From: Devosia sp. LC5
GTDB lineage: Bacteria > Pseudomonadota > Alphaproteobacteria > Rhizobiales > Devosiaceae
NCBI RefSeq assembly: GCF_000735585.1
Contig: NZ_JNNO01000003.1
Coordinates: forward strand, 1-64,000
DNA: 64,000 nt
Direction: 5' to 3'
Under the pieces are notes generated by a model that was not told where the DNA came from, searched no databases, and was given only the letters and a program-made list of their open reading frames with translations. Numbering within the stretch: position 1 is the first letter of the stretch; each line of letters opens with the position of its first letter. A program made the position numbers and the translations under genes. Positions 36,613 to 54,296 of this stretch are shown here, in pieces.

Positions 36613-37383
36613 ATGACCGGGACTTCCGAAAATCCGCCCGTACTCAGCGTGCATGATCTCAAGGTCGAGATCGATGGCCGCCAGATCATCAACGGCATGA
36701 ATTTTGAGGCCCAGCGCGGCGAAATCCTGGGGCTGATCGGGCCGTCCGGTTCGGGCAAGTCCGTCACCATGCGCGCCATTGTGCGGTTGCTCCCCAGCAC
36801 GGGCGAGATCCGGATTCTGGGCCGCAACTATGCCGAGCTGGACCGCGAGGAACGCGTCGCCACCCAGCGAAAATGGGGCATCCTGTTCCAGCAGGGCGCA
36901 TTGTTTTCGTCCCTGAGCGTGCTGGAGAACATCGAATTTCCCATGCGCGAGCACTTGCATCTGTCCTCTGGCCTGCGCAGCGACATCGCCCGGCTCAAGC
37001 TCGATCTGGTCGGCCTGCCGGCCAAGGCGGCCCAGCTTTACCCGTCCGAATTGTCGGGCGGCATGATCAAGCGCGCCGCTTTGGCGCGCGCCCTGGCGCT
37101 CGATCCGCAAATTCTGTTTCTCGACGAGCCCACGGCCGGGCTCGACCCCATCGGGGCGGGCAAGTTCGATGAACTTATTGTCACGCTGCGTGACACGCTC
37201 GATCTGACAGTGCTTATGGTAACCCACGATCTGGACAGTCTGGCCACGGCCTGTGACCGGATCGTGGCATTGGCGGATGGCAAATTGCTGCTGGCAGGTA
37301 CAATGGCCGAAATGCGGGCAAGCACGCATCCCTGGCTTCGCGACTATTTCCACGGGCCGCGCGCCCACGGCCTTGAAGGTTAG
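36613..37383 (+). CDS. mlaF: MlaF-like lipid transport ATPase
   Basis: ATPase of 256 residues. Walker A GPSGSGKSV (about 43-51), signature LSGGMIKR and Walker B FLDEPTAGLD are present. The variant signature with GGMIKR is typical of MlaF/Mkl proteins. It starts 3 nt after the permease gene and is followed 4 nt later by the MCE protein gene. It energises lipid transport together with the STAS-permease. Confidence 0.94.
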   Translation: MTGTSENPPVLSVHDLKVEIDGRQIINGMNFEAQRGEILGLIGPSGSGKSVTMRAIVRLLPSTGEIRILGRNYAELDREERVATQRKWGILFQQGALFSSLSVLENIEFPMREHLHLSSGLRSDIARLKLDLVGLPAKAAQLYPSELSGGMIKRAALARALALDPQILFLDEPTAGLDPIGAGKFDELIVTLRDTLDLTVLMVTHDLDSLATACDRIVALADGKLLLAGTMAEMRASTHPWLRDYFHGPRAHGLEG

Positions 37384-37387
37384 CCCT

Positions 37388-38701
37388 ATGGAAAACAACG
37401 CAAATTATGCATTGGTCGGGGTGCTGGCAGCCGCAGTTTTCGCCGCGCTCTTTGCCTTCGTCTACTGGTTTGCAGCCCCCGCCGCCAATATCGCGCTCAA
37501 ACCCTATGATATCGTCTTCACCGGTACCGTCAGCGGCATTGCCCGCGGCACGGACGTGACCTTCAACGGCATCCGCATCGGCCAGGTCAATACGGTCCAG
37601 CTCGACCCCCAGGATTCCAACCGCGTCGTCGCCCGGGTCGAGGTGGACGCTACCGTCCCCGTCCACGCCGATACCAAGGTCGTGACCGGCTTTCAGGGGC
37701 TGACCGGCGGCGGCTCGGTGCAGCTGAGCGGCGGCACCATTGCGGCAGGCGATCCGCCGATCGGGCCAGGGCACGACGTGCCTACGCTTTACGCCGAGGT
37801 CTCCGATTTCCAATCGATCATCGATGGCCTTTCCTCCACGGTCAACGGCGCCTCCACAGCCGTCAGCCGCATCAATTCCCTGCTCGATGCCAATGACGAC
37901 AAGATCAACACGACCCTCGCCAATATCGAGAGCTTCAGCTCGGCCCTCGCCGTGAATTCCGATGGCGTGCAGAGCGCCCTCGCCAGTATTTCCGAAGCCG
38001 GCCAGCAGATCGGCCCGATGGCCGAGCAGATCGGGGAACTTTCGGCCAAGGTGAGTGCCCTGGTCGATGCCGTGCCGCCCGAGGATGTCGCCAAGGTGGT
38101 GGCCGACGTCACCATCTTCTCCGATAGCCTGGCGCGCAATTCCGACCAGATCGACAAATTCTTCGCCACCACCGCGGTGCTGTCGGACAATCTCACCCAA
38201 TTGACCGAGGGCCTGCACAGCGCCGTTGCGGTGATCGATCAGGTTGCCGCCGAAATCGACCCCACCATTGTCGGCCGCGTGATGGACAATGTGGACAAGT
38301 TCGCTGCCACGCTCGGCAAGAATACGGACAATGTCGATATCATCGTGGCCAATGTGACGTCGGTGACCGACCAGCTGACGCGCTCGGTCGAAAAAGTGGA
38401 TTCCATCCTGGCCCAGGTCGATTCTTCGGTATCGAGCGCAGAAGGGCAGGGCCTGTTCAACGATATCGCGGAGGCGGCCCAATCCGTGCGCGCCCTGGCC
38501 GACCAGCTCAATGCCAGCACTTCGCGCATCGCCTCGGGATTGAACGATTTCACCTCGCGCGGGTTGTCCGAGTACACAGCGCTTGCCGTGGATGCCCGCG
38601 GCACGCTGCAGCGGCTTGACCGGGTGGTGCGGAACCTTGAAAACAATCCGCAGGGACTCATCTTTGGGGGAGAAACAGTTCGTGACTATACCAAGCAATA
38701 A
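37388..38701 (+). CDS. mlaD: MCE-domain (MlaD-like) lipid-binding protein
   Basis: Membrane-anchored periplasmic protein of 437 residues. An N-terminal transmembrane helix (about 7-30) precedes a single MCE domain (about 38-118) with FTGTVSGIARGTDVTFNGIRIGQV and FQGLTGGGSVQLSGG. The remaining about 300 residues are helical with repeated 'V..I....D.........V' segments, as in long PqiB/YebT-like or actinobacterial Mce tails. The length is well above E. coli MlaD (183 residues), so it may form a longer periplasmic tube. Its gene frame extends further upstream but overlaps mlaF; the ATG at 37388 is the normal start. Confidence 0.9.
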   Translation: MENNANYALVGVLAAAVFAALFAFVYWFAAPAANIALKPYDIVFTGTVSGIARGTDVTFNGIRIGQVNTVQLDPQDSNRVVARVEVDATVPVHADTKVVTGFQGLTGGGSVQLSGGTIAAGDPPIGPGHDVPTLYAEVSDFQSIIDGLSSTVNGASTAVSRINSLLDANDDKINTTLANIESFSSALAVNSDGVQSALASISEAGQQIGPMAEQIGELSAKVSALVDAVPPEDVAKVVADVTIFSDSLARNSDQIDKFFATTAVLSDNLTQLTEGLHSAVAVIDQVAAEIDPTIVGRVMDNVDKFAATLGKNTDNVDIIVANVTSVTDQLTRSVEKVDSILAQVDSSVSSAEGQGLFNDIAEAAQSVRALADQLNASTSRIASGLNDFTSRGLSEYTALAVDARGTLQRLDRVVRNLENNPQGLIFGGETVRDYTKQ

Positions 38702-38710
38702 GGTCCCCCG

Positions 38711-39301
38711 ATGAGCCTGGCGCGTCGTTCATTCATGGCCGGAGGGGCCTCTATCCTCGCCCTGGGACTGGCCGGCTGCTTTGGCGTACGCGCCCCGATC
38801 ACCTATGATCTGGGCAGTGTCGACGGGCTTAACACGCGCCGCCGCTCCTCGCGCGTCGTGGTCATCACCCTGCCCAAGACGGTACAGACCTATGATTCCC
38901 AGCGCATCGTCATTCGCGACGCGGGCAATGTGCTGAGCTACCTGCCCGAAGCCCAGCTCTCCGATACCTTGCCCCGGCTGGTGCAGACCCGCCTGTTGCA
39001 GACCTTCGAAGCCAGCAACTTCCCCAATATCGGCAGGCCCGACGATCAGTTGCGCGTCGACGTGACATTGGCGACCGAATTGCGCGCCTTCGAGATCGAT
39101 GTCGGCAAAGGAGGCCTCGCCACCGTCACGATCAATGCCAAGCTGGTCGATGAACAGCGCGGCGCCATCTTCGCCAGCCAGGTCTTCACCGCTACCCGCC
39201 CCGGCGTGGTCACCCCTGCCGTCGCCGCCATCGCCGCGCTCGATGGCGCGCTGGCCGATGTGATGAGCCAGATATTGGTCTGGACCGCCCGCAACGCGTG
39301 A
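38711..39301 (+). CDS. ABC-type transport auxiliary lipoprotein (PqiC/LptE-like)
   Basis: Lipoprotein of 196 residues with a lipobox LAGC at about residues 19-22 after a twin-arginine-like RRSFMAGGAS signal. The mature part matches the auxiliary lipoprotein family of MCE systems (YDLG...RVVVITLPKTVQTYDSQRIVIRDAGNVLSYLPEAQLSDTLPRLVQTRL). PqiC, the best-known member, links MCE complexes to the outer membrane. It closes the mlaE-F-D operon, 9 nt after mlaD. Confidence 0.9.
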   Translation: MSLARRSFMAGGASILALGLAGCFGVRAPITYDLGSVDGLNTRRRSSRVVVITLPKTVQTYDSQRIVIRDAGNVLSYLPEAQLSDTLPRLVQTRLLQTFEASNFPNIGRPDDQLRVDVTLATELRAFEIDVGKGGLATVTINAKLVDEQRGAIFASQVFTATRPGVVTPAVAAIAALDGALADVMSQILVWTARNA

Positions 39302-39461
39302 GGTCGCGCTAGCGTCATTTTCTCGCGGCCAGCATAGCCATCGCATGCCACTGCGGGTCCCACTGGAACTCGGCCACACCGGCCCACGTTGTTGCTGCGT
39401 GAACAGCGCAAGCAAAACATGGCTGGGTAAGCTCGCTGCAATAAAGGTCCCATCCAGCCGG

Positions 39462-40304
39462 ATGGAAACCATGACTGAACCGGGGGTCAACCTCGAGCAG
39501 ATCCGCCTCTTTCCGCCCGCCACCGCCCTGTGGTCGCTGGAGCGCGGCACCTCGCCCATTATCGGCACTGCCATTCATAATGGTCACCATATCCGCGCCG
39601 AAGCGCTCGATCGCATGGCGCTCGATGATGCCGGTCGCCTGCACGAAGAGGCTCCCTTCACCGCCTATGCCATCCTTGACGTGCCCAATCGCATCGTCGT
39701 GCACCGCTCCCGCTTTGAGATCGACCTCAACCGGGCGCGCGACGCCTCGGTCTATCTGAAGCCCGAACAATCCTGGGGCCTGCAGGTGTGGCGGGAGCGG
39801 CCATCGCCGGCCATCATCGCGCGCTCGTTGCGCATCCACGACGCCTATTACGCCATGCTGCGGCAGGTCCTGGCGGGCATCGAGGCCGAGCACGGCCAAT
39901 TCGTCTTGCTCGATATTCATAGCTACAATCACCGCCGCGCCGGCCCCGGCGGGTCGCCGACCGACCCGGAGCAGGCGCCCGATATCAATATCGGCACCTT
40001 CTCCATGGATCGTGAGCGCTGGGCGCATATTCTCGACCCATTCATGGAAAACCTTGGCAGCCTGCGCTTCCGCGGCCGCTTCATGGATGTGCGCGAGAAT
40101 GTGGTGTCCGAGGGCCGGGGCGAGCAGACCCGTTTCGTGCATGAACATTTCCCGCAGACCGGCTGCGCCATTGCGGTCGAATTCAAGAAATTCTTCATGG
40201 ACGAATGGACAGGCGAGCCCGACCTGGAGGCGCTCGATGCCATGCGCGCCGTCATCGCCTCGGCCATCCCAGTGCTCGAAACTGCATTGCGGGCGGACAG
40301 ATAG
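39462..40304 (+). CDS. N-formylglutamate amidohydrolase family protein
   Basis: Zn-dependent amidohydrolase-fold protein of about 280 residues (ATG at 39462; ATG at 39471 is also possible and has a GGAAA before it). LLDIHSYNHRRAGPGG in the middle carries the probable metal-binding DxHSY motif. FVHEHFPQTGCAIAVEFKKFFMDEWTG lies near the C-terminus. The family deformylates N-formylglutamate in histidine degradation, but related members act on other N-acyl amino acids. No other hut genes are nearby. It stands alone, convergent with the DUF885-like gene. Confidence 0.82.
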   Translation: METMTEPGVNLEQIRLFPPATALWSLERGTSPIIGTAIHNGHHIRAEALDRMALDDAGRLHEEAPFTAYAILDVPNRIVVHRSRFEIDLNRARDASVYLKPEQSWGLQVWRERPSPAIIARSLRIHDAYYAMLRQVLAGIEAEHGQFVLLDIHSYNHRRAGPGGSPTDPEQAPDINIGTFSMDRERWAHILDPFMENLGSLRFRGRFMDVRENVVSEGRGEQTRFVHEHFPQTGCAIAVEFKKFFMDEWTGEPDLEALDAMRAVIASAIPVLETALRADR

Positions 40305-40432: not shown

Positions 40433-41596
40433 CTAGGACCAGTGCTCGGCCAGCGTTTTGGGCGTGTGCATATTGCCGTAGAGATAGTCCCAGAATTCGG
40501 CGCGCCGCTCCTTCGGCACACTCTTCCAGACCTCATGCACGGCGACATCGCCACACCAATAGGCATAGACGAATGGCGCCCGCAGGCTATGCCCGAGAAA
40601 CGCCAGCCGCGACCGCGCCGTTACTGGATCCTGAAACCCGCCCTCGGCCATCACCGGCACGATTTCGTCCAAGGTCTTGCCCTGGCTATGCATCATCCAG
40701 GCCGCATTGCAGCGCAGGGCGCCGCGTAAACGCTGCAACGCCACGCCCAATTCGTCCTCCGGCCCCTCGATCCAGTCGAGGAAGAACATGCCATTGTCCG
40801 CAATGCCCTCGAACAGCGCGCTGCTGGCCGAAGAGGTCACCACTTGCGCGCCATCCAGCGGCATCCGGCCCTCGGCCACATAGCGTTCCCGCAGCGCCAG
40901 ATGCACCAGATGCCCCGGAAAGACCTCGTGTGTTGCCAGATGCTTGAGGGCAAACCGCGTATAGGGAAAGTCCAGATTCATCAGCACCTTGCGGGCCGGA
41001 TAATCGCAATAGGCCGAGAACGGCACAGCGCTTACGCCGACCGGCTCCATCCATTGATCGGCCATCGGATACATGCGCGCACTGACGCGCCCACGGGCTT
41101 CCAGGGTCAGCGCCCGCATGGTTTCCAGTACCGCATCGGCGGGTACGCGAACCTGGTCCTCCCACCGCGCCAGATCATCCGCCAGCGCCCCGCCGGCAAA
41201 GCCCATTTCATTGAGTTTTTCGCGGATAATGGCGCGATAACCATCCAGCACATCATCGCCCACCAATTGCGTATCGACCCGGATTTGCCGCCGCACCCGC
41301 TCGGCAAAGGAAATCTCCCTCTCCGCAAAGGTCGCCACCAGCGCGAGCAGGGAATCCACCATCTCATCGAGATAATCCCGCCGCAGCGCCGACTCCGCCT
41401 CGGCCGCCAGCCGGCCGCGCAAGGCTAGCAATTCCGCCGCCGCCTCATCATAATCCCGCAATTGACGCGGCTCGACTGCCTCCACCGCAACCGGGATCAA
41501 CCCCTCACGGTCGAGAAATCCATCGCTGCGCGGCGTGCTGCGGTAGAGCTGATCAATGCCGGCGGTGAGTTCGGCCAGTTCCTTGCCAAGTTTCAT
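40433..41596 (-). CDS. DUF885-like putative zinc metallopeptidase
   Basis: Cytoplasmic protein of 387 residues, mostly helical. A zinc motif HEVFPGH (H223, E224, H229) is followed 34 residues later by LFEGIADNG with E263, the usual third ligand arrangement in DUF885 proteins (HExxPGH...EGWA). It lacks the N-terminal extension of longer DUF885 members. It is 10 nt downstream of the aldo/keto reductase on the same strand. The substrate is unknown; a peptide role fits the neighbourhood. Confidence 0.82.
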   Translation of the reverse strand: MKLGKELAELTAGIDQLYRSTPRSDGFLDREGLIPVAVEAVEPRQLRDYDEAAAELLALRGRLAAEAESALRRDYLDEMVDSLLALVATFAEREISFAERVRRQIRVDTQLVGDDVLDGYRAIIREKLNEMGFAGGALADDLARWEDQVRVPADAVLETMRALTLEARGRVSARMYPMADQWMEPVGVSAVPFSAYCDYPARKVLMNLDFPYTRFALKHLATHEVFPGHLVHLALRERYVAEGRMPLDGAQVVTSSASSALFEGIADNGMFFLDWIEGPEDELGVALQRLRGALRCNAAWMMHSQGKTLDEIVPVMAEGGFQDPVTARSRLAFLGHSLRAPFVYAYWCGDVAVHEVWKSVPKERRAEFWDYLYGNMHTPKTLAEHWS

Positions 41597-41606
41597 GGCA
41601 TGACCC

Positions 41607-42578
41607 TCACATATGCCCGGCGACGGGCTTGGGATGGTAGGGCGCCTCCATCAAGGCGACGTCCTCATCGCTGAGCTTGACCTCGAGCGCCGCCACCGCA
41701 TCATCAAACTGATGCAGCTTGGAAATCCCCACGATCGGCGCCGAAATGCCCGGCCGGCTGACAACCCAGGCATAGGCGATCTGCGCCGGCGGCCTGCCAT
41801 GGCGCTCCGCCACATGCCGCACAGCGGCGACCACCGCGTCGTCCTGCTCCTTGGAGCGGTCATAGAGTGCAGCAGCCGTCTTGTCGGTCTGCGAGCGCGT
41901 GGAGGCATCGCCACTGCGGCCCGCCAGCCGCCCGCGCGCCAGGGGGCTCCAGGGGATTACCCCGATCCCCTCGGACCGGCATAGCGGCAGCATTTCGCGC
42001 TCTTCCTCGCGATAGATTAGGTTGTAATGCGGCTGCATCGATACGAATGGCGCCCAGCCGTTCGCGCGTTGCAGGCCCAGCGCCTTCATGAATTGCCAGG
42101 CATGCATCGAGGAGGCACCCAGATAGCGCACCTTGCCCGCCCGCACCACGTCGTTCAGCGCATCCAGAGTCTCTTCCAGCGGCGTATCATAGTCGAAACG
42201 GTGCAACTGATAGAGATCGATATAGTCGGTTCCAAGCCGCTTGAGGCTGCCATCCACCGCCTCGAAAACATGCTTGCGCGATAGTCCGCGATCGTTGGGA
42301 TCTGCGCTCATCGGATTATAGAGCTTGGTCGCCAGCACCAGTTTGTGGCGCGGCATGGGGGCCAGCACGCGGCCTACCACCTCCTCGCTCGCGCCCAGCG
42401 AATACATGTCCGCCAGGTCGAAAAAGTTGATGCCCAGCGCCACGGCCTTTTCGATGATCGGCCGGGAGGTGTCTTCGTTTAACACCCATGGCGCCCAATC
42501 GGGTGAGCCGAACGTCATGCAACCCAGCGCCAGTCGCGAAATTTTCAGGCCCGTCCGGCCAAGGTTGATATAGTCCAT
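41607..42578 (-). CDS. Aldo/keto reductase
   Basis: NADPH-dependent reductase of 323 residues. The start at 42578 (MDYINLGRTGLKISRLALGCMTFG) has AGAAGG upstream. Catalytic residues are in the usual places: D in FFDLADMYSLGASE, K in LVLATKLY and H in DLYQLHRFDYDTPLEETL. It is first in a two-gene operon with the DUF885-like peptidase, divergent from the GntR gene. The substrate is unknown. Confidence 0.92.
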   Translation of the reverse strand: MDYINLGRTGLKISRLALGCMTFGSPDWAPWVLNEDTSRPIIEKAVALGINFFDLADMYSLGASEEVVGRVLAPMPRHKLVLATKLYNPMSADPNDRGLSRKHVFEAVDGSLKRLGTDYIDLYQLHRFDYDTPLEETLDALNDVVRAGKVRYLGASSMHAWQFMKALGLQRANGWAPFVSMQPHYNLIYREEEREMLPLCRSEGIGVIPWSPLARGRLAGRSGDASTRSQTDKTAAALYDRSKEQDDAVVAAVRHVAERHGRPPAQIAYAWVVSRPGISAPIVGISKLHQFDDAVAALEVKLSDEDVALMEAPYHPKPVAGHM

Positions 42579-42792
42579 TAGTACACCTTCTAGAGCTGAC
42601 CATTCGCCTGCTGGCCGCATTTTCGTATGATTTGCCAGCCACATCAGCGCATTCGTCGATAGTGAAGCGCTTGCAAGGAATATTTCTGCACAGATTTTCG
42701 GCGAATGCAAACTGTGTACAAAAAACTCCCAGACCCTATTGCGCTCAGGAAATGCGGTGTTACGCTTGGTGTGTACTGAACTGGTAGAACAC
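42579..42792. promoter_or_regulatory. Divergent promoter region of the AKR and GntR-transport operons
   Basis: 214 bp without a gene. GTGTAC-type hexamers occur as GTACAC next to the AKR start (about 42580) and as TGTGTAC near 42713 and 42769. At the right end TGTGT...ACACA (about 42769-42793) makes an inverted pair across the proposed GntR start. YtrA-like GntR proteins bind GTGTAC-containing dyads, so these are candidate operators. Evidence is weak. Confidence 0.35.
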
Positions 42793-43821
42793 ATGTTCCC
42801 CATAGACGCATCCAGCATTGATAAGTCGCTGCCCGTTCCCGTGGGCACGCAATTACATGGCCTGCTGAGCTACACGCTGGCCTTTGGCGACATGGTCTAT
42901 GGCACCAGATTGCCCTCGGTGCGCCAGCTCGCCGCCGAACTGGGCATTGCGCCCATGACGGTCAGCCAGGTCTATCAACAGCTGCGCGATGCCGGCCTGA
43001 TCGAGATGCGCCAGGGCCTGGGCGCCTTCACGGCGCGCGATCCGGGCCAGAGCGTGGATGAGCGGCAGCCAATCAATGCGCTGCGCGGCGATATCGAGGC
43101 CATTGTCGGCCGGGCCGAGGCGCTGGGCGTCTCCACCATGGAGCTGGTCTCCATGATCAATGCCCAGGCTCAGTTGCGCCGCCCCTCGGTCGGGCTTTCC
43201 ATGGTTTTCGTCTGTATCTTCGAGGGGCCGGGCCGCGACTATGTCGAGCAGATCCGCCCTGCGCTCGGCGCCAATGACAGCATGCAACTGGTAACGCTGG
43301 ATAGCCTGCGCCAGCCCGGCGCCGAACGCGATGCCTGCCGCCGTGCCGATCTGGTGATCACCTTCCTGCACCGCGAGGCCGAAGTGCGCGGCCTGGCCGG
43401 GATCGACCATGTGCTCGGCCTGCGTTTCATTCCGTCCCAGCGCACGCGGCAAAACCTGGCCGGGCTCGATCCGCGCACGCGTGTCGCCGCGGTGACGCAC
43501 TTCCAGGAATACATCGCCATCATGCGCCCCAGTGTGCGCGAATTTGCCCCGCACGTCTCCGATATCCGGGTCACCTGGTCATCGGCGCCCGATCTCAAGG
43601 AGATCATCGCCGGGTGCGACGCGGTGATCTACGCCTCGGGCGCCGACCATGTGGCCGATCTGGTGCGCCCCAACGTGCGCTGTTTCGAATATCGCCACGC
43701 GCCTGATCCGGGGGCGCTGGAAAATACGCTCGCCCCGCATCTAGCCGAACTCCGGCAGCGGCGGATCGCCCGGGAGCCGGAGAATCAGGCCGCTGCCCTC
43801 GAGGGAATGGCGCCAGCCTGA
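42793..43821 (+). CDS. GntR regulator with a C-terminal sugar/ligand-binding-like domain
   Basis: Regulator of about 342 residues from the ATG at 42793. The winged helix (about 20-90) contains YGTRLPSVRQLAAELGIAPMTVSQVYQQLRDAGLI. The rest (about 130-320) has alternating alpha/beta segments such as LSMVFVCIFEGPGRDYVEQIRPAL and IIAGCDAVIYASGADHV, resembling a periplasmic-binding-like sensor rather than an FCD or UTRA domain. It ends 40 bp before the binding-protein gene of the Dpp-type operon and probably controls it. Confidence 0.85.
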   Translation: MFPIDASSIDKSLPVPVGTQLHGLLSYTLAFGDMVYGTRLPSVRQLAAELGIAPMTVSQVYQQLRDAGLIEMRQGLGAFTARDPGQSVDERQPINALRGDIEAIVGRAEALGVSTMELVSMINAQAQLRRPSVGLSMVFVCIFEGPGRDYVEQIRPALGANDSMQLVTLDSLRQPGAERDACRRADLVITFLHREAEVRGLAGIDHVLGLRFIPSQRTRQNLAGLDPRTRVAAVTHFQEYIAIMRPSVREFAPHVSDIRVTWSSAPDLKEIIAGCDAVIYASGADHVADLVRPNVRCFEYRHAPDPGALENTLAPHLAELRQRRIAREPENQAAALEGMAPA

Positions 43822-45469: not shown

Positions 45470-46654
45470 ATGGCGTTCCACCAGGTCCTCGGACACGACT
45501 ATTATGCCAAGGTTCACGCCGATATCCGCAAGCGCATGGCCGCTGCGGGCATCGATCTGCTGCTGCTCGATTCCAATGACGACGTGATCTATACGACCGG
45601 CTTTTCGCACTACACCACCGAGCGCCCGGTGGTCTTTGCCATCAGCCATGACGGCGCCTGGCTCCTGCTGCCCAAGCTCGAAGAGAGCCATGCGGCCCAC
45701 CAGAATATCGCGGCCGAACCCATCGTCTATTTCGAATTCCCCGGCGTGGACCGGCCCTTCGACGTACTCGGGCGCGCCTTCCCCGACATGAGCGGCGTCG
45801 TCGCCTATAGCCACGCCATTTCGCTCGCGCGCGTCAGCCAGATCGAGGCTGCTTTCCCCAATGCCAGCCGCGTCGTACCGGCCAATATCGTCCAGCAGAT
45901 GCGGCTGATCAAATATCCCGAGGAAATCGTGCTGCACCGCGAGGCTGCGCGGATTTCCGACGAGATGGTGGTGGCCGGCGTCGGCCTGATTGCCGATGCC
46001 ATGGCCTCGGGCGGCACGCTGCCCAGCGAAATCGAAATCGAATCCTTCGTCTCTCGCCACGCCATGAAGATCATGCATGAAGAACACGCCGATCTGATGC
46101 TGGTGCAGGGGCTGGCCAGTGGCCTGGTCTATTCCGGCGCCCGCTCGGCCTTCCCCCATGGCATGCCGACCGGCAATCCCGTCAAGCGCGGCGAGAGCAT
46201 CATTCTCTCGCTCGGTTGCCGCGTTGGTGGCCGCGCCGCCGAAAGCGAACGTACCCTGTTCATCGGCGAACCCAACAAAATCCAGCTCGATCATTACGCG
46301 GTCGCCTACGAGGCCCAGCGCATGGCAACCGCGGCGCTGATCGCCGGCCACACCTGCGCCTCCGCCGACAATCTGGCCCTCGCTTTCATCCGCGATAGCG
46401 GCATGAGCGATTATCTGCTGCATCGCGTCGGTCATGGCATGGGCGTCATGTTCCACGAGGCGCCATGGGTGGAGGCGGGCGACGAGACCATTCTCGAGCC
46501 CGGCATGATCACCTCGAGCGAGCCGGCAATCTTCGTGCCCGGCTTTGCCGGCTACCGCATTGCCGACACCGTGCTGATCACCGCCGAAGGCCCCGACAGC
46601 ATGACCCATTACCCCCGCAAGATCGACGACGTCGTCATCGGCTCGACCTCATGA
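45470..46654 (+). CDS. M24-fold protein lacking metal ligands (creatinase/ectoine hydrolase-like)
   Basis: 394 residues: creatinase N domain (about 10-140) and pita-bread domain (about 150-385). Against aminopeptidase P the five ligands should be Asp, Asp, His, Glu, Glu. Here they are S247 (ILSLG), E258 (AAESERT), H322 (RVGHGMG), E351 (TSSEPA) and A365 (YRIADT), so three are changed and metal binding is unlikely. Creatinase and the ectoine hydrolase EutD/DoeA are M24 members of this kind that hydrolyse amidine-like C-N bonds. The FPHG at 228-231 supports a substrate-binding His. It overlaps the next permease by 4 nt (ATGA). It might instead be a peptidase with altered metal use, but that is less likely. 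Confidence 0.88.
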   Translation: MAFHQVLGHDYYAKVHADIRKRMAAAGIDLLLLDSNDDVIYTTGFSHYTTERPVVFAISHDGAWLLLPKLEESHAAHQNIAAEPIVYFEFPGVDRPFDVLGRAFPDMSGVVAYSHAISLARVSQIEAAFPNASRVVPANIVQQMRLIKYPEEIVLHREAARISDEMVVAGVGLIADAMASGGTLPSEIEIESFVSRHAMKIMHEEHADLMLVQGLASGLVYSGARSAFPHGMPTGNPVKRGESIILSLGCRVGGRAAESERTLFIGEPNKIQLDHYAVAYEAQRMATAALIAGHTCASADNLALAFIRDSGMSDYLLHRVGHGMGVMFHEAPWVEAGDETILEPGMITSSEPAIFVPGFAGYRIADTVLITAEGPDSMTHYPRKIDDVVIGSTS

Positions 46655-47631
46655 TCGCCTATATCGTCCGCCGGCTATTGCTGCTCATCCCCATGGCCAT
46701 TGGCATGGTCGTGGTGACATTCGGCCTGTTGCTGCTCATCCCCGGCGACCCGGCCGCGGTCCTCCTCGGACAGGACGCGACGCCCGAAGCCATCCTCAAT
46801 CTGCGCAATGCGCTGGGCCTCAACGATCCCTGGTATGTCCGCCTCTGGGACTATTTCGCCGCGCTGCTCCGTGGCGACATGGGTACCTCGATCTTCCAGA
46901 ACCAGCCCGTCGCCGAAATCATCGCCGGCCGGCTCGGCGCGACCATCGAATTGGCCGTGGTGTCGCTGCTGCTCGCCACGCTGATCGGGCTGACGCTCGG
47001 GGTATTGGCCGCCATCCGCCAGGGCTCGTTCATCGATACGGCCACCATGCTCTTCGCCCAGCTCGGCGTCTCCATGCCGGTCTATTGGCTGGGCCTGCTG
47101 CTTATGCTGCTCTTTGCCGTGCAACTCGGCTGGCTCCCGGCCATCGGCCGCGGCGTGCCGCTGCATGAAGCCTTGTTCGCCGCGCTCACCGGTCGTCCGC
47201 AGGTGCTGTGGGATTCGGTCAGCCATATCGCCCTGCCGGCACTGGCGCTGGCCGCCAATTCGGCCGCCATCATCTCCCGGCTGGTGCGCGCCTCCATGCT
47301 CGAAGTGCTGCGCGAGGATTTCGTACGCACCGCCTATGCCAAGGGCTTGCGCAAGGGCAGGGTGGTCGTCCGCCACGCCCTGCGCAATGCCCTGCTGCCC
47401 GTGCTCAGCGTCATCGGCCTGCGCTTTGGCGCCCTGCTGGGCGGCGCGGTGCTGACCGAATCCATCTTTGCCTGGCCGGGCCTGGGCCAGCTCACCATCG
47501 CGGCCATTTCGCAGCGCGACCTGCCGCTCATTCAGGGCATCGTGCTGACCTTCGCCATCGTCTTCGCGCTGGTCAATCTGGTGGTCGATCTCCTCTATGC
47601 CGCGGTCGATCCGCGCATCCGCCTCGGGTGA
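46651..47631 (+). CDS. Dpp-type ABC permease (subunit B)
   Basis: Inner-membrane permease of 326 residues starting within the end of the M24 gene. The N-terminal MIAYIVRRLLLLIPMAIGMVVVTFGLLLLIPGDPA is standard for DppB. The coupling loop lies in 'REDFVRTAYAKGLRKGRVVVRHALRNALLPVLS' (about 220-252). The next permease gene starts 6 nt after the stop. It is tightly coupled with the enzyme genes on either side, which implies a shared substrate. Confidence 0.94.
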   Translation: MIAYIVRRLLLLIPMAIGMVVVTFGLLLLIPGDPAAVLLGQDATPEAILNLRNALGLNDPWYVRLWDYFAALLRGDMGTSIFQNQPVAEIIAGRLGATIELAVVSLLLATLIGLTLGVLAAIRQGSFIDTATMLFAQLGVSMPVYWLGLLLMLLFAVQLGWLPAIGRGVPLHEALFAALTGRPQVLWDSVSHIALPALALAANSAAIISRLVRASMLEVLREDFVRTAYAKGLRKGRVVVRHALRNALLPVLSVIGLRFGALLGGAVLTESIFAWPGLGQLTIAAISQRDLPLIQGIVLTFAIVFALVNLVVDLLYAAVDPRIRLG

Positions 47632-47636
47632 CCTCC

Positions 47637-48482
47637 ATGCGATTGCCAAAAGCCTTCCAGAATACCTCGCTCATGGTCGGGGCCGCGATTTCCCTCGCCA
47701 TCATCCTCTGCGCCATTTTCGCGCCCTATGTGGCCACCCATGGCGTCGAGCAGATGGACATGCGCAACCGCTTTGCCCTGCCCAATGCCGGGCACCTGTT
47801 GGGCACCGATAATTTCGGCCGTGATCTGTGGTCGCGCATGGTGTTCGGGGCCCGCATCTCGCTGACCATCGCCATCATCTCGGTGGTCTGCTCGGCTGTC
47901 GTCGGCACCGTTGTTGGCCTCGTCGCCGGCTATTTCGGCGGCTGGGTCGACCAGCTCCTGATGCGCATCACCGACATCTTCCTCGGCTTCCCCGCTATCG
48001 TTCTGGCGCTGGCCATCGTCGCGGTACTCGGCCCCGGCGTGCTCAACGTATCCTTCGCCATCATCGTCGTGGCCTGGACCGAATATGCCCGCGTCGTCCG
48101 CTCGACGACCCTGGTGCTGCGCGAACAAAACTACGTGCAGGCCGCCCGCGCGCTGGGCGCCAGCCCCATCCGCATCATCTTCAAGGAAATCCTGCCCAAC
48201 GCCCTGGGCCCGATCATCGTGCTCGCCTCGCTGGGCCTCGGCACCGCCATCATCTCCGAATCCGCGCTGAGCTTTCTCGGCTTCGGCCTGCCGCCGCCTA
48301 CGCCCACCTGGGGCTGGACGCTCTCCTACGGCACCAAATTCATGCGTGACGCGCCGTGGCTCTCCATCATTTCGGGCGCGACCATCATGGTCACCGTGCT
48401 CGGTTTCAACCTCCTGGGCGATGGGCTCAGGGACGTTCTCGATCCTCGCCAGCTGTCGCGTGGCGGGGCCAAGACCAAGTAA
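47637..48482 (+). CDS. Dpp-type ABC permease (subunit C)
   Basis: Permease of 281 residues from the ATG at 47637. It has the DppC signature HLLGTDNFGRDLWSRMVFGARISL (about 62-85), the coupling loop REQNYVQAARALGASPIRIIFKEILPN and a C-terminal LGDGLRDVLDPR. Longer upstream readings would overlap the first permease and are not needed. The deacylase gene follows after 16 bp. Confidence 0.94.
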   Translation: MRLPKAFQNTSLMVGAAISLAIILCAIFAPYVATHGVEQMDMRNRFALPNAGHLLGTDNFGRDLWSRMVFGARISLTIAIISVVCSAVVGTVVGLVAGYFGGWVDQLLMRITDIFLGFPAIVLALAIVAVLGPGVLNVSFAIIVVAWTEYARVVRSTTLVLREQNYVQAARALGASPIRIIFKEILPNALGPIIVLASLGLGTAIISESALSFLGFGLPPPTPTWGWTLSYGTKFMRDAPWLSIISGATIMVTVLGFNLLGDGLRDVLDPRQLSRGGAKTK

Positions 48483-48498
48483 CTAAAGGAATAATCGA

Positions 48499-49443
48499 AT
48501 GGTAAAGTCCATCAACCAGCTTCGTCCCAAGTTCACCACCAATGCCGATGGCAGCGATGCCGTATTGTTCGTGCACGAGCTGGTGGGCGAAGAAGATGGC
48601 CCCACCATCGGCATCTCGGCCTCGATCCATGGCAATGAGAATACCGGCTCGCAGGCAATTCTCGAACTCTACCGCATCCTCAAGGACATACCCCTCAAGG
48701 GCCGCATCCTGCTGCTGCCGGTCGCCAATCCGTCCGCCTTCGCGGTCAATGAGCGCTTTGCCACCATCGACAAGGTCGATCTCAATCGACAATTCCCCGG
48801 CAGCCCCAAGGGCACCTATAGCCAGCAGCTCGCCCATGCGCTGACCGAGCATTATTTCAACGTCATCGACATGCATATCGACCTGCATAGCGGCACCGAT
48901 CGCCCCACCGTCGACTACGTCTATATCTGGAACGACGAGCAGCTTTCCCGCGCCTTCGGCTCCAAGCTCCTCTACCGCCCGGTCGAGAACAAGCAGGGCA
49001 CCGTCTTTGGCGGCACCACCAAATCCGTCACCCTCGACAAGCGCAATATCCCGGTCTCGGTCATCGAACTGGGCGGCGGCATTCTGGACCAGACCCCCTA
49101 TATCAAGCGCACTGTCGATGGCGTGCTCAATATGCTGCGCACTAAGGGCGTCATCCCTGGCACGCCGTGGGACAATCCCAAGCAGATCGTGGTCAACGAA
49201 CTGGCCGGCATCCGCCCCAGCCAGGGCGGTTGGCTTGAGCCGCTTTGCCCCGCCAATGGCGAGGTCATCAAGGCCGGGCAGCTGCTGGGCCGCGTCGTCA
49301 GCCCCTACAATTTCGAGGTGCTCGAAGAGATCGCCACCCCGTTCGCCAATGGCGTGATGATCATGCAGCACCTCACGCGCAACCTCGTTCAGAGTGGTGA
49401 TTACGGCTTCATGGTGGGCAATCTCGAAGGCGCCACCGACTGA
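48499..49443 (+). CDS. AstE/AspA-type zinc deacylase
   Basis: Carboxypeptidase-fold deacylase of 314 residues, cytoplasmic. Zinc ligands are H44 and E47 (ASIHGNENTG) and H130 (IDLHSG); DLNRQFPG at 94-101 is the substrate-binding stretch and E190 (VIELGGG) the likely catalytic Glu. Relatives cleave N-succinyl-glutamate, N-acetyl-aspartate or, in EutE/DoeB, N-acetyl-diaminobutyrate. Its pairing with the M24-fold protein and a transporter suggests removal of an acyl group from an imported compound or from the product of the M24 enzyme. Confidence 0.9.
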   Translation: MVKSINQLRPKFTTNADGSDAVLFVHELVGEEDGPTIGISASIHGNENTGSQAILELYRILKDIPLKGRILLLPVANPSAFAVNERFATIDKVDLNRQFPGSPKGTYSQQLAHALTEHYFNVIDMHIDLHSGTDRPTVDYVYIWNDEQLSRAFGSKLLYRPVENKQGTVFGGTTKSVTLDKRNIPVSVIELGGGILDQTPYIKRTVDGVLNMLRTKGVIPGTPWDNPKQIVVNELAGIRPSQGGWLEPLCPANGEVIKAGQLLGRVVSPYNFEVLEEIATPFANGVMIMQHLTRNLVQSGDYGFMVGNLEGATD

Positions 49444-49499: not shown

Positions 49500-50504
49500 A
49501 TGAGTGTCCTCCCACACGCTTCCCAGGCGCCTGTGCTCCAAGTCATGGATCTCGACATCGAGATCCGTGGCGCCAATGGATCATTCGCTGTCGTTTCCGA
49601 CATGAACCTTTCGGTGCGGGCAGGGGAGACCCTCTGCATCGTGGGGGAGAGCGGCTGCGGCAAGTCGATGACTGCCCTCGCTTTGCTGCGCCTCTTGCCG
49701 GAGGCGGCCAAGGTCGCCTCCGGCAAGATTCTGATCGATGGCGTGGATTTCCTCGCCATGAACCAGCGCCAGGTCGAGGACTTTCGCGGCGAGCAGATCG
49801 CCATGATCTTCCAGGAGCCGCTCACCGCGCTCAATCCGGTACTCAAGATCGGCGAACAGATCGCCGAAGCCGTGCGCCAGCATCGCAAGTGCAACCATAA
49901 ACAGGCCCGCGCCCGCGCCATCGAAGCCCTGCAACTGGTGCAGATGCCCGATCCCGAACGCCGCGCCGGGCAATATCCGCACGAACTGTCCGGCGGCATG
50001 CGCCAGCGCGCCATGATTGCATTGGCTTTGTCCTGCGACCCCAAGATCATCATTGCCGACGAGCCGACCACCGCGCTCGACGTGACCATTCAGGCCCAGA
50101 TTCTGGGCCTGATCTCGGACCTGCAAAAGCGCCTCGGCACCGCGCAAATCCTCATCACCCACGATCTGGGCGTGGTGTCGGAAGTCGCCGACCGGGTCAT
50201 CGTCATGTATGCCGGCCGCAAGGTCGAGGAAGCCAGTATCTACGATCTCTTCGACCGTCCCTTCCATCCCTACACAATCGGGCTGATGGGCGCCGTGCCG
50301 CGTGCCGGCGCGTCAAGCGAAGCCGGTGATCGGCTGGCCGATATCTCCGGCACGGTGCCGCCCCTTTGGGATCTGCCCAGGGGCTGCGCCTTTGCCCCGC
50401 GCTGCCCCAATGCCTCGGCGCGCTGCCTTTCCGAGCGCCCGCCATTCGAAGAAAAACGCCCCGGTCACTGGGCCGCCTGCTGGGAGCACGACGATGCAGC
50501 CTGA
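49500..50504 (+). CDS. Dpp-type ABC transporter ATPase (subunit D)
   Basis: ATPase of 334 residues. Walker [10 protein letters not shown] (about 50-58), signature LSGGMRQR, Walker B IADEPTTALD and the C-terminal Cys-containing segment RGCAFAPRCPNASARCLSERP are present. It is 56 bp after the deacylase gene and overlaps the second ATPase by 11 nt. Together they power the importer that spans the two permeases encoded just upstream. Confidence 0.93.
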   Translation: MSVLPHASQAPVLQVMDLDIEIRGANGSFAVVSDMNLSVRAGETLCIVGESGCGKSMTALALLRLLPEAAKVASGKILIDGVDFLAMNQRQVEDFRGEQIAMIFQEPLTALNPVLKIGEQIAEAVRQHRKCNHKQARARAIEALQLVQMPDPERRAGQYPHELSGGMRQRAMIALALSCDPKIIIADEPTTALDVTIQAQILGLISDLQKRLGTAQILITHDLGVVSEVADRVIVMYAGRKVEEASIYDLFDRPFHPYTIGLMGAVPRAGASSEAGDRLADISGTVPPLWDLPRGCAFAPRCPNASARCLSERPPFEEKRPGHWAACWEHDDAA

Positions 50505-51468
50505 TCAAACGCCCTTGCTCAGCGTCGATAATCTGCAAGTCCATTTCCCCGTAAGGGCCGGCGTCTTGCAGCGCCAGGTCGGTGCGGTCAAAGCCGTCGA
50601 TGGCGTCAGCTTCACCTTGGCGCGCGGCGAAACGCTCAGCCTTGTGGGCGAAAGCGGCTGCGGCAAATCCACCACCGGCCTTGCGCTGATGGGCCTCGTC
50701 AAACCGACCGGCGGGCAGGTCAATTTCGACGGCCAGGAAATCCGCAGCTTCAATCGCGCCGCGCTCAAATCCTATCGCCGCCGCATGCAGATCGTGTTTC
50801 AGGACCCGTTCTCGTCCCTCAATCCGCGCCAGCGCGTCCGTGACATCATCCGCGCCCCGCTCGACATCCACAATGTCGGCACCAAGGCCGAACGCACGGA
50901 ACGCGTTGCCGAATTGATGCAGCGCGTCGGCCTGCGCCCCGATCAGGCCGACAATTTCGCCCACCAATTTTCCGGCGGCCAGCGCCAGCGCATCGGCATC
51001 GCCCGGGCTCTCGCGCTCAATCCCGATATCATCGTTTGCGACGAGCCGGTCTCGGCGCTCGACGTGTCCGTGCAGGCGCAAATCCTCAACCTGCTGAGTG
51101 ATTTGCAGCGCGATCTGGGCGTGTCCTATCTGGCGGTCTCGCATGATCTGGGCGTGGTGGAATATATCTCCCACCGCGTCGCGGTCATGTATCTGGGCCG
51201 CATTGTCGAGATCGCCCCCAAGACCAAGATTTTCGCCAATCCGGCCCATCCCTATACCGAGCTATTGATGCGCTCGGCGCCCTCGCACGACCCGCGCAAG
51301 CGCCACCAATTCAGCGCCACCAATGACGATATCCCCAGCGCCACCCGCAAACCCTCCGGCTGCGCCTTCCACACCCGCTGCCCGCTGGCGACGGATGTGT
51401 GCAAGACAGTGGATCCGCAATTGAGTGCCCGCGACGAAGGCCGTTTCGTCGCCTGCCATCACAGATAG
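50494..51468 (+). CDS. Dpp-type ABC transporter ATPase (subunit F)
   Basis: ATPase of 324 residues from the ATG at 50494. Walker [10 protein letters not shown], signature FSGGQRQR and Walker [11 protein letters not shown] are present. The C-terminal extension has [16 protein letters not shown]. It is the partner of the ATPase encoded just upstream. A half palindromic repeat separates it from the amidohydrolase gene. Confidence 0.93.
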
Positions 51469-51655: not shown

Positions 51656-52891
51656 ATGACCAATAGCTATCTTTTCACCGGCGGCCGCGTCCTCGACGTT
51701 GAAGCAGGCACCCTGCGTGACGGCCTCGACGTGCTGGTCACGGGCGACCGCATCGCCGCCGTCGGCACGAGTCTCACCGTCCCCTCCAATACCACCGAAA
51801 TCCCGCTGGGCGGCCGCACGATCATGCCCGGCCTGATCGATTGCCACGTCCATGTCGTGGCCGAAACGCTCGACCTCTGGGCTAATATGACCGCCCCGTC
51901 CTCGCTCGCCGCCCTGCGCGCCGCCGGCGTGATGAACGACGCCCTGCGCCGTGGCTTCACCACCCTGCGTGATCTGGGCGGTGCCGATCACGGCCTGGTG
52001 CGCGCGGTCAATGAGGGCCTGATCCCCGGTCCGCGCCTCGTCATCTGCGGCAAGGGTCTGACCACGACCGGCGGCCATGCCGATCTGCGCTCCCGCACCG
52101 ATAACCGGCCCGGCATATTCTCGGACCGGCTGGGCTCGATGGGCCTCATTGTCGATGGCGTCGACAATGTCCGCGCCGCCTGCCGCACCATGATCAAGGA
52201 GGGCGCCAATTTCATCAAGGTCATGGCCAATGGCGGCGTGTCCTCGCCCAATGACCCGATCCATTCCATCCAATATTCGCGCGAGGAAATCCTCGCCATG
52301 GTGGAAGAGGCCGACAATGCCGGGCTCTATGTTTCGGCCCATGTCTATACCGACAAAGCCATTCGCCGCTGCGTCGAGCTGGGCGTGCATTCGCTCGAAC
52401 ATTGCAACCTGATCGAACCCGAAACCGCCAGGCTCGCGGCCGAAAAAGGCTGCATCGCCGTGCCCACGCTCGTCGCCTATGACGCGCTGGCGCTCGAAGG
52501 CGAAGCGCTCGGTCTCGGCGCCGCCGAATTCGCCAAGATCGAGGTGGTCCGCAGCGGCGGCCTGCGCTCACTGCAAGTCATGCGCGACGCCGGCCTGCCC
52601 ATGGCCTTCGGCTCCGACCTTTTGGGCCAGCTCCGCAAATATCACTGCATGGAATTCGAAATCCTCGCCAAGGTACTCACCCCAGCCGAAATCATCCGCT
52701 CCGCTACCATAATCGGCGCAAAGCTCTGCCGCCTCGAAGGCGAAGCCGGTATCATCGCCCCCGGCGCCTCCGCGGATCTCCTGGTCATCAACGGCAATCC
52801 CCTCAGCGACATCGGTCTGCTGCAAGGCGATGGCGCGCATATGTCCGCCATCATGGCGCGTGGCACCTTCGCCAAGAACCACCTGCTATAG
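51656..52891 (+). CDS. M38/amidohydrolase-family enzyme (prolidase- or imidazolonepropionase-like)
   Basis: Metal-dependent amidohydrolase of 411 residues, without signal peptide. The N-terminal strand domain precedes H64/H66 (DCHVHV). Further likely ligands are the carboxylated K188 (FIKVMANGG), H229 (SAHVYTD), H249 (LEHCN) and D321 (FGSDLLG), the binuclear subtype I arrangement. Relatives include Xaa-Pro and Xaa-Arg/Lys carboxypeptidases and other cyclic-amide hydrolases. By position it ends the transporter-hydrolase-deacylase operon and may process the same compound. Confidence 0.92.
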   Translation: MTNSYLFTGGRVLDVEAGTLRDGLDVLVTGDRIAAVGTSLTVPSNTTEIPLGGRTIMPGLIDCHVHVVAETLDLWANMTAPSSLAALRAAGVMNDALRRGFTTLRDLGGADHGLVRAVNEGLIPGPRLVICGKGLTTTGGHADLRSRTDNRPGIFSDRLGSMGLIVDGVDNVRAACRTMIKEGANFIKVMANGGVSSPNDPIHSIQYSREEILAMVEEADNAGLYVSAHVYTDKAIRRCVELGVHSLEHCNLIEPETARLAAEKGCIAVPTLVAYDALALEGEALGLGAAEFAKIEVVRSGGLRSLQVMRDAGLPMAFGSDLLGQLRKYHCMEFEILAKVLTPAEIIRSATIIGAKLCRLEGEAGIIAPGASADLLVINGNPLSDIGLLQGDGAHMSAIMARGTFAKNHLL

Positions 52892-53202: not shown

Positions 53203-53583
53203 ATGCTCTTCGGACTATTCATCCTGCTCGCCTGCCAACTCGCCGGCGAGATCATCGCGCGGAGCCTGGGCCTGCCCATTCCCGGTCCGGTCATCGGCAT
53301 AGTCCTGCTCTTCGCCCTGCTCGCCCTCCAGGGCTGGCGCCAGGGCGCCGCCTCCGCCGAAACCGGCCCCGTCGCAAAATCCGCTGATGGCCTCCTCGCC
53401 AATCTGGGTCTGGTCTTCATTCCCGCCGGCGTCGGCATTTCCCAGAATTACCAATTGGTCTTCGACAATGGCCTGGCCCTCGTCGCCGCGCTGGTCATTT
53501 CGACCGTGCTGACGCTGATCGTCACCGTCGCCATCTTCCGCTTCGTCAGCCGCCTGCTTCCCGGCAAGGAGGCACAGCCATGA
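53203..53583 (+). CDS. lrgA: LrgA/CidA-family membrane protein
   Basis: Small membrane protein of 126 residues with about four transmembrane helices. LACQLAGEIIARSLGLPIPGPVIGIVLLFALL is the typical LrgA/CidA N-terminus and GLLANLGLVFIPAGVGI is its central motif. LrgAB/CidAB pairs affect cell lysis, pyruvate transport or plastid glycolate export in other organisms. The gene overlaps lrgB by 4 nt. Confidence 0.9.
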   Translation: MLFGLFILLACQLAGEIIARSLGLPIPGPVIGIVLLFALLALQGWRQGAASAETGPVAKSADGLLANLGLVFIPAGVGISQNYQLVFDNGLALVAALVISTVLTLIVTVAIFRFVSRLLPGKEAQP

Positions 53584-54296
53584 CCACCAATTTCGACCTC
53601 TGGGTCTATCTCGCCGCCAGCCCCTTGCTCTGGCTCACGCTCACCATCGGCACCTTCCTCGCCGCCCAATGGATCGCCAAGCGCAGCTTCTACCACCCCG
53701 TGGTCAATCCGGTGCTGATCACCATCGTCGTGGTCGTCCTCGTCCTGCGCCTGACCGGCACCAGTTACGACACCTATTTCGACGGCGCCCAGTTCATCCA
53801 CTTCATCCTTGGCCCGGCAACCGTGGCCCTCGCCATCCCCCTCTACCGCAGCCGCCAATTGGTCAAAGCCAAAGCCCTGCCGATCCTCGCCTCCCTTGCC
53901 ATCGGCGCCCCCTTCGCCATGCTCTCGGCCACCGGTATCGCCATAGTGCTCGGCGGCGCCCCCGCCATCGTGCTGGCGCTGGTCCCCAAATCGGTCACTG
54001 CGGGCATTGCGGTGGGTATTGCCGGCCAGATCGGGGGCGAACCGGCCCTCACCGCGGTCCTCGTCATCGCCACCGGCATATTGGGCGCGGTCGTGGTCAC
54101 CCCCCTCATGAACGCCCTGAAAATCACCGACTATGCCGCAAGAGGCTTCGCCGCCGGCCTCACCTCGCACGGCATCGGCACCGCCCGCGCCTTCCAGGTC
54201 AATTCCGTCGCTGGAACCTTCGCCGGCCTCGCCATGGCCCTGAACGGCCTCGCCACAGCCTTTCTCGCCCCACTGATCTTCGGCTTTTTCAGCTAG
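53580..54296 (+). CDS. lrgB: LrgB-family membrane protein
   Basis: Membrane protein of 238 residues. Family features include 'ISKRSFYHPVVNPVLI'-like text (here AKRSFYHPVVNPVLITIVVV, about 35-54), FILGPATVALAIPLYR and 'KSVTAGIAVGIAGQIGGEPALTAVLVIATGILGAV'. It is the partner of LrgA. Overlapping stop/start codons imply coupled translation. The transported molecule in this organism is unknown. Confidence 0.92.
   Translation: MTTNFDLWVYLAASPLLWLTLTIGTFLAAQWIAKRSFYHPVVNPVLITIVVVVLVLRLTGTSYDTYFDGAQFIHFILGPATVALAIPLYRSRQLVKAKALPILASLAIGAPFAMLSATGIAIVLGGAPAIVLALVPKSVTAGIAVGIAGQIGGEPALTAVLVIATGILGAVVVTPLMNALKITDYAARGFAAGLTSHGIGTARAFQVNSVAGTFAGLAMALNGLATAFLAPLIFGFFS

Follow-up and report, generated by a model that had tools for sequence, protein, structure and literature searches.

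The window analysed here, a 64,000-nucleotide stretch of the Devosia sp. LC5 genome, carries a gene for an M24-fold protein among genes for an oligopeptide-type ABC importer and other predicted enzymes (Table 1). The reading frame runs from ATG to TGA without interruption and encodes 394 residues, with an N-terminal Creatinase_N domain (PF01321, 60 bits, cut-off 22) and a C-terminal Peptidase_M24 domain (PF00557, 134.2 bits, cut-off 23) that place it in the M24 pita-bread superfamily. It lies between the genes for the binding protein and the permeases, and its TGA overlaps the ATG of the DppB/OppB-type permease (ATGA), so the M24 gene is very likely part of the operon.

Table 1. Genes at and around the M24 locus of the window.
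Coordinates	Strand	Feature	Basis or remark
37253-38701	+	presumably an MCE/MlaD-type lipid transport protein	resemblance
38711-39301	+	presumably an ABC auxiliary lipoprotein	resemblance
39345-40304	+	N-formylglutamate amidohydrolase-like protein	PF05013; beside DUF885
40433-41596	-	DUF885-like protein, usually beside the operon	19.5 bits, cut-off 32.4
41607-42596	-	aldo-keto reductase, divergent from the operon	PF00248, 252 bits; ORF extends to 42848, start not fixed
42739-43821	+	GntR-family regulator, HTH and long C-terminal part	PF00392, 39.8 bits
43841-45400	+	periplasmic solute-binding protein family 5, oligopeptide/nickel type	PF00496, 310 bits
45470-46654	+	M24-fold hydrolase, E-x-E-R-T type	ORF reading, Pfam, alignments
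46651-47631	+	ABC permease, DppB/OppB type	PF00528; start from sequence
47637-48482	+	ABC permease, DppC/OppC type	position and translation; ATG 47637, GTG 47628 also possible
48499-49443	+	AstE/AspA-type deacylase	best NCBIfam model DoeB/EutE, 80.4 bits, cut-off 402.7
49500-50504	+	ABC ATPase, DppD/OppD type	translation
50494-51468	+	ABC ATPase, DppF/OppF type	translation
51656-52891	+	amidohydrolase-superfamily enzyme, prolidase or N-acyl-proline hydrolase type	closest PDB chains
53203-54296	+	presumably an LrgA/LrgB (CidA/CidB) pair	resemblance; two overlapping membrane-protein ORFs

Among the loci compared, the N-formylglutamate amidohydrolase-like gene occurs only in three close relatives (L045, L079 and L032) and therefore lies outside the conserved operon. 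Within the operon, H44, E47 and H130 of the AstE-type deacylase, which we take to be metal ligands, are kept in 43/43 rows, and the HxH, Lys, His, His and Asp motif of the amidohydrolase, which we assume to form its metal site, in 39/39 (both counts include some genomes twice). Judged by these residues, the two neighbours look like working metalloenzymes, unlike the M24 site. The PDB chains closest to the amidohydrolase are 3mkv (375.5 bits) and 3feq/3n2c (370.4 bits), and its best NCBIfam model is Xaa-Pro dipeptidase, at 242 bits against a cut-off of 500. These chains are Sgx9260b and Sgx9260c, whose substrates are given in the excerpted sources as Xaa-Pro dipeptides and N-acyl-prolines (PMC11511702, PMC11342369). 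Any prolidase in the operon is more likely to be the amidohydrolase than the M24 protein.

Residue changes at the M24 metal site

Alignment with prolidases by phmmer places the five metal positions, canonically Asp-Asp-His-Glu-Glu, at S247, E258, H322, E351 and A365, exactly the residues counted in the preliminary description of this DNA. Against 1pv9 and 6xmr the surroundings of the ligands align without gaps, with spacings in both proteins of 11 between the first two ligands and 14 between the last two, which rules out a miscount and leaves no other Asp or Glu at any of the five positions. The same description counted three of the five ligands as lost. This holds outright for S247 and A365, but E258 is a conservative Asp-to-Glu change that retains the carboxylate and could still bind metal.

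The best sequence matches of the protein, its best PDB matches included, are prolidases, and a Terrarubrum relative with 52% identity is annotated as a 'Xaa-Pro peptidase family protein', the label that automated annotation had been expected to give. Such matches favour an ordinary Xaa-Pro dipeptidase or aminopeptidase whose metal site tolerates changes, a reading that we nevertheless consider very improbable. The protein lacks the five-ligand set of a metal-dependent M24B Xaa-Pro peptidase, two ligands being absent and one changed in a form that is fixed in the family, and it scores 149.7 bits against the NCBIfam PepQ model, for which the cut-off is 630; the earlier doubt that it is a Xaa-Pro aminopeptidase was well placed. 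Additionally, other M24 proteins of the same genome have the canonical ligands (L001 and L003, and L002 by motif; the motif filter gave no ORF for L004 and L006, which were left out of the ligand reading).

The altered site is constant across the close family. Protein searches of 61 related genomes and plasmids yielded 18 ORFs of more than 45% identity (one partial), not selected by pattern, and all 18 read S-E-H-E with A (14) or S (4) as the fifth residue. Among 84,980 species genomes scanned there were 114 relatives, of which the best 80 were taken on; these yielded 79 named loci, all belonging to Alphaproteobacteria and Actinomycetes. The resulting 83 rows, made up of the window protein and 82 tblastn matches of more than 330 residues without a stop (some species are also in the 18-ORF set), all show S-E-H-E followed by A (41) or S (42). 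As the two peptide patterns of the scan span residues 257-266 or 360-369, columns 258-262 and 365 were partly selected; columns 230, 247, 322 and 351 were free of that selection. Left out were four loci with a stop within the tblastn match (L048, L067, L085 and L108), L079, which is in four pieces, and the second L062 copy, which is in two. With the pocket constant in 83/83 rows, gene decay is ruled out. The nearest named loci among the best 80 of 114 come from a Rhizobiales genome (98% identity) and D. subaequoris (L046, 88%); the M24 gene of Devosia sp. A8/3-2 (L079) is 85-98% identical to that of the window, in pieces.

Aligning 50 rows of the close family leaves 72 of 394 columns without variation, and the charged or histidine columns among these include H230, R255, E258, E260, H318, H322, H329, E330, E351 and R363. 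Eleven rows from four phyla, picked by motif, share 28 invariant columns, among them H230, H318, H322, H329, E351 and R363, none of which played a part in choosing the rows. The close family is patchy, as shown by sparse matches at several levels: an order-wide profile search of 199 genomes at E 1e-70 returned only the window's own gene, matches of more than 45% identity were found in 12/37 genomes of the same genus (its own included) and 0/24 others, and a phylum search at E 1e-32 matched 6/398 genomes, its own included, the five others being four canonical and one of a type reading G-E-H-E-I.

Two residues past E258 lies E260, which the preliminary description did not mention and which strengthens its comparison with creatinase. 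The protein reads E-x-E-R-T where canonical members read S/A-D-I/M-T/S-R, and because residues two apart on a beta-strand face the same side, E260 is expected to be directed towards what was the metal site. Deinococcus, haloarchaea, Persicobacter and Cupriavidus carry the motif too; no canonical relative in the samples has it. In a MAFFT alignment the first and fifth positions vary among these distant members, which read G-E-H-E-S (Deinococcus), I-E-H-E-S (haloarchaea), L-E-H-E-S (Leisingera and Persicobacter) and L-E-H-E-D (Rhizobium NXC24 and Cupriavidus). When 398 genomes of the phylum were searched with a profile, 91 had a match at E 1e-45, and the best loci returned, leaving aside the window's own, numbered 29: 21 canonical D-D-H-E-E, 3 E-x-E-R-T, 4 of creatinase type (N-A-H-E-H in that alignment) and 1 G-E-H-E-I. 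Position 260 is Thr or Ser in 21/21 canonical rows, Gly in the G-E-H-E-I row and Glu in 4/4 creatinase-type and 3/3 E-x-E-R-T rows. It is likewise Thr or Ser in 10/10 canonical rows of the MAFFT set, four places being common to both samples. In these samples, therefore, Glu260 is not seen beside an intact metal site.

Two variants of the arrangement were also seen. The G-E-H-E-I type, at L019 and at a G397 locus (L131/L148), has 'ESGVT' replacing E-x-E-R-T. A plasmid of Haladaptatus pallidirubidus (L031, 7977-12594) has two E-x-E-R-T M24 genes in a row, and in the same stretch an amidohydrolase with 35% identity to that of the window and, on the other strand, a canonical D-D-H-E-E M24 gene; the pairing of altered M24 and amidohydrolase thus also occurs in an archaeon. 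Among the matches listed from open-licence PMC titles and abstracts, none dealt with the E-x-E-R-T group and none with an operon of M24, oligopeptide importer and AstE genes, which does not imply absence elsewhere.

E258, H322 and E351 occupy what we take to be three of the four M1 ligand positions, with Asp replaced by Glu, and could hold a single metal ion, A365 or S365 leaving room for water or substrate. The three residues are constant in 83/83 and 11/11 rows (E258 partly by selection). The fifth position is still acidic in some relatives (Rhizobium NXC24, Cupriavidus and three phylum-search loci, with E-H-E-D), so a one-metal site would be complete there. However, the fifth ligand is A or S in 83/83 rows, and E260 matches a creatinase residue that binds substrate, not metal; a mononuclear metallohydrolase seems to us unlikely, though credible.

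Operon conservation and tandem copies

The 79 loci split into 36 of class 1 and 43 of class 2. Of the class-1 loci, 28 extend 5 kb or more upstream and 7.5 kb or more downstream, and all of these contain the regulator, binding protein, both permeases, AstE-type enzyme and both ATPases (matches of more than 45% identity); the amidohydrolase is present in 26/28, and the aldo-keto reductase and DUF885 in 25/28 each. Class 2, which comprises actinomycetes and some Devosia, has the binding protein and both permeases in 42/43 loci, and no AstE match was found among the 43. Among 47 loci compared (the 43 of class 2 and L028-L031), the ORF after the M24 gene of L089 has homologues in 43 other loci and the ORF before its binding-protein gene in 35. 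Pfam assigns the representatives scanned to the alpha/beta hydrolases and the M19 membrane dipeptidases, respectively. The alpha/beta hydrolases resemble prolyl-iminopeptidase, scoring at most 112.4 bits where the cut-off is 167.65.

A tandem second M24 copy is present in 9/36 class-1 loci (L050, L053, L055-L057 and L062-L065), and those that are readable, 8/8, keep the full pocket. This count excludes gene pieces and, in L067, a distant M24 gene on the other strand. Tandem copies in G029 and Neorhizobium records bear the same altered site. A canonical copy beside the window gene, which might have formed a mixed pair with it, was expected but not found. The tandem copies are one point in favour of a non-catalytic M24 protein, which would partner the importer, the AstE-type enzyme or a tandem M24 copy in a binding, scaffolding or regulatory role. 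Another is that other M24-fold proteins have lost catalysis: Spt16 structures are among the structural matches described below, and LmaPA2G4 is termed a pseudoenzyme in the excerpted source (PMC3888471). Against this, the residues of the pocket do not vary, E260 has become fixed as a specific replacement, and the eight readable second copies retain the whole pocket, which makes a loss of catalysis decidedly unlikely in our estimation.

Several loci differ in detail. The second copies of L050, L053, L055-L057 and L063-L065 show 55-58% identity, with the same altered site. In single-copy Devosia loci such as those of D. soli (L069) and N26CT (L078), the M24 gene at the same place shows 59-66% identity and the other operon genes 68-94%; together, the tandem and single-copy identities suggest differential loss or replacement of copies. 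L032 (G006) has, from about 7759 to the intact M24 gene at 8802, extra partial M24 pieces, one of them on the opposite strand, and extra partial pieces of the first permease gene as well, within an otherwise intact operon, perhaps as the result of a recent rearrangement. In L079 (Devosia sp. A8/3-2) and L027 (N. galegae VafX2) the operon genes are split over several frames, for which sequencing errors seem likelier than decay.

Predicted fold and relationships

The AF2 model of the window protein has a pLDDT of 93.3 and a pTM of 0.92. Three creatinase entries head the VIA list of structural matches, with Z of 43.9-44.5 and an rmsd of 1.8-1.9 Å over 375-376 residues, ahead of the best Xaa-Pro dipeptidase (Z 42.4), DoeA (39.7) and the Spt16 structures (34.0 and below). 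This ranking is that of the window model alone, the gap is modest in a fold common to all, and Z may be raised for creatinase by a chain longer than that of most prolidases. In Foldseek the 12 best E-values belong to prolidases or dipeptidases, and the top query TM-scores, 0.87-0.89 among the 50 rows listed, to creatinases.

At the level of residues, Glu262 of the creatinase 'ALERT' motif corresponds to E260, His232 to H230, His324 to H322 and Glu358 to E351 (numbering follows the 1chm letters, one ahead of the chain index, as the structural-match range suggests). H230, H322 and E351 are common to ordinary prolidases, and of the shared residues only E260 separates the window protein toward creatinase. 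In creatinase, Glu262 and Glu358 hold the positively charged guanidinium of creatine, His232 is the proton shuttle and Arg335 binds the creatine carboxylate; the catalytic roles of the pocket residues were reportedly described by Coll et al. in 1990. The ERT Glu and the equivalents of His232, His324 and Glu358 are all present in the window protein. The residues that we take to define the creatine pocket, Ala260, Arg335 and His376, are not, E258, W333 and A365 standing in their places. The hairpin before ERT is two residues longer in creatinase, where the letter read at the first ligand depends on gap placement. No creatininase or sarcosine gene was found among the nine neighbourhood proteins scanned, and with these three pocket differences we rejected a true creatinase.

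Two unrooted trees were compared. A 44-row tree puts the E-x-E-R-T, creatinase and G-E-H-E-I rows on one side, with weak support (57/81), and the canonical and DoeA rows on the other. A second tree, built after removal of the five trait columns and of the long-branched L031_Halad_2, has the 10 canonical rows on one side (93/91) and all altered types on the other; it groups creatinase with Leisingera, Persicobacter, Deinococcus and haloarchaeal rows (86/81) and joins the L-E-H-E-D rows to DoeA and canonical rows (95/90). The window clade of 16 rows is firm in both (100/98 and 100/99), with the G-E-H-E-I type as its sister in each, and its joins to the known creatinases are weak or conflicting. 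In neither tree does E-x-E-R-T form one side of a branch; the motif requires 3 and 4 changes and is recovered in 0% of 200 bootstraps, a scatter that tells against a simple clade. Alternatively, the motif may have arisen once and later been converted to the creatinase, G-E-H-E-I and, in the second tree, DoeA types; the trees would also permit the canonical site to have been lost only once, creatinase and others branching off afterwards.

Proposed function and comparison with known systems

Our best explanation, which we hold to be probable with some reserve, is that the window M24 protein hydrolyses C-N bonds in the manner of creatinase, independently of metal, as one step of a pathway for uptake and breakdown; metal-free M24 enzymes already have precedents. 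In the mechanism we infer, the two-metal centre would be replaced by E258, E260 and E351 set among H230, H318, H322 and H329. E260 and E351 would act in the places of Glu262 and Glu358 and H230 in that of His232, the glutamates gripping a cationic or amidine/amide-like group and H230 moving a proton, such that acid-base chemistry could cleave a C-N bond with no metal pair activating water. The importer would bring in a small nitrogen compound, which the M24 protein would open or cleave before the AstE-type enzyme removed an acyl group, and the amidohydrolase, its metal residues kept, would carry out Xaa-Pro or N-acyl-Pro hydrolysis. By analogy with the substrates of the amidohydrolase's relatives, the imported compound may be peptide-like or an imino-acid derivative.

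A narrower form of this explanation would have the M24 protein open the ring or release the acyl group of a proline-type compound, such as a cyclic or N-acylated Xaa-Pro, with the amidohydrolase finishing as a prolidase. It draws on the Xaa-Pro and N-acyl-proline activities of Sgx9260b/c in the excerpts cited (PMC11511702, PMC11342369), on the prolyl-iminopeptidase-like alpha/beta hydrolase and M19 dipeptidase of the class-2 representatives, and on ectoine hydrolase, an M24 enzyme whose ring opening, in the excerpted sources, precedes the action of an AstE-type deacetylase (PMC5924519, PMC3187862). An acidic pocket, however, fits cations better than neutral diketopiperazines, and the amidohydrolase falls well below the Xaa-Pro dipeptidase cut-off. 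We regard this version as unlikely. In open-licence PMC literature on cyclic-dipeptide hydrolases the sole match listed concerned caprolactam. Returning to the metal-independent hydrolase in its general form, the conserved solute-binding protein beside the M24 gene makes the question of substrate directly testable by ligand screening.

More broadly, and only tentatively, the E-x-E-R-T M24 proteins could be a large unnamed branch, spread over Pseudomonadota, Actinomycetota, Deinococcota, Bacteroidota and haloarchaea, in which the two-metal centre gave way to a glutamate cluster and of which creatinase, and perhaps ectoine hydrolase, would be specialised offshoots. Databases would then be filing, as Xaa-Pro peptidases, a whole store of metal-free C-N hydrolases that act on imported nitrogen compounds. 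If so, a set of proteins annotated as Xaa-Pro peptidases would be metal-free hydrolases tied to dedicated importers, and the series of pockets from D-D-H-E-E through L-E-H-E-D, G/I/L-E-H-E-S and S-E-H-E-A to the creatinase pattern would permit a stepwise study of how a two-metal centre is lost. What makes the group interesting is how widely and regularly the E-x-E-R-T pattern occurs and how readily a substrate could be sought.

Set beside the classes of M24 enzyme already described, the window protein lacks the ligands of a canonical Xaa-Pro peptidase, the pocket of creatinase, and both the model score and the pocket of ectoine hydrolase. With Xaa-Pro dipeptidase (PepQ, M24B) it shares the fold, the N-terminal domain, H230, H322 and E351; it differs in the two missing ligands, the one changed and the Glu that replaces Thr/Ser in D-x-T/S-R. 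DddP, an M24-fold non-peptidase, keeps its two metals according to the excerpt consulted (PMC4108388), and the excerpted text of PMC13188858 contains nothing on the M24 pocket. With creatinase (1chm, 1kp0 and 7yto) it has in common the M24 fold and the loss of the canonical metal ligands, at 21-23% identity.

The preliminary description had offered both creatinase and ectoine hydrolase as metal-independent comparators, and the second has proved the weaker. DoeA/EutD resembles the window protein in being an M24 protein without the canonical ligands that is encoded beside an AstE-type deacylase (DoeB/EutE) in a catabolic cluster, and such a neighbour is present here and in 28/28 class-1 loci. 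The excerpted sources liken the M24 protein DoeA to creatinase (PMC3187862) and have DoeB/EutE deacetylate the ring-opened product after it (PMC5924519). However, DoeA reads E-P-Y-M-T where the window protein reads S-E-H-E-A, a difference at all five positions (MAFFT, with three DoeA rows that exceed the family cut-off). Against TIGR02993 (cut-off 613) and NF038259 (cut-off 575) the window protein reaches 56.1 and 53.4 bits, respectively, so a straight ectoine hydrolase was rejected. Finally, Sgx9260b and Sgx9260c (3mkv and 3n2c) are the nearest solved relatives of the operon's amidohydrolase, which keeps the metal-site residues; this likeness concerns a protein distinct from the M24 protein, one that may carry the operon's prolidase role.
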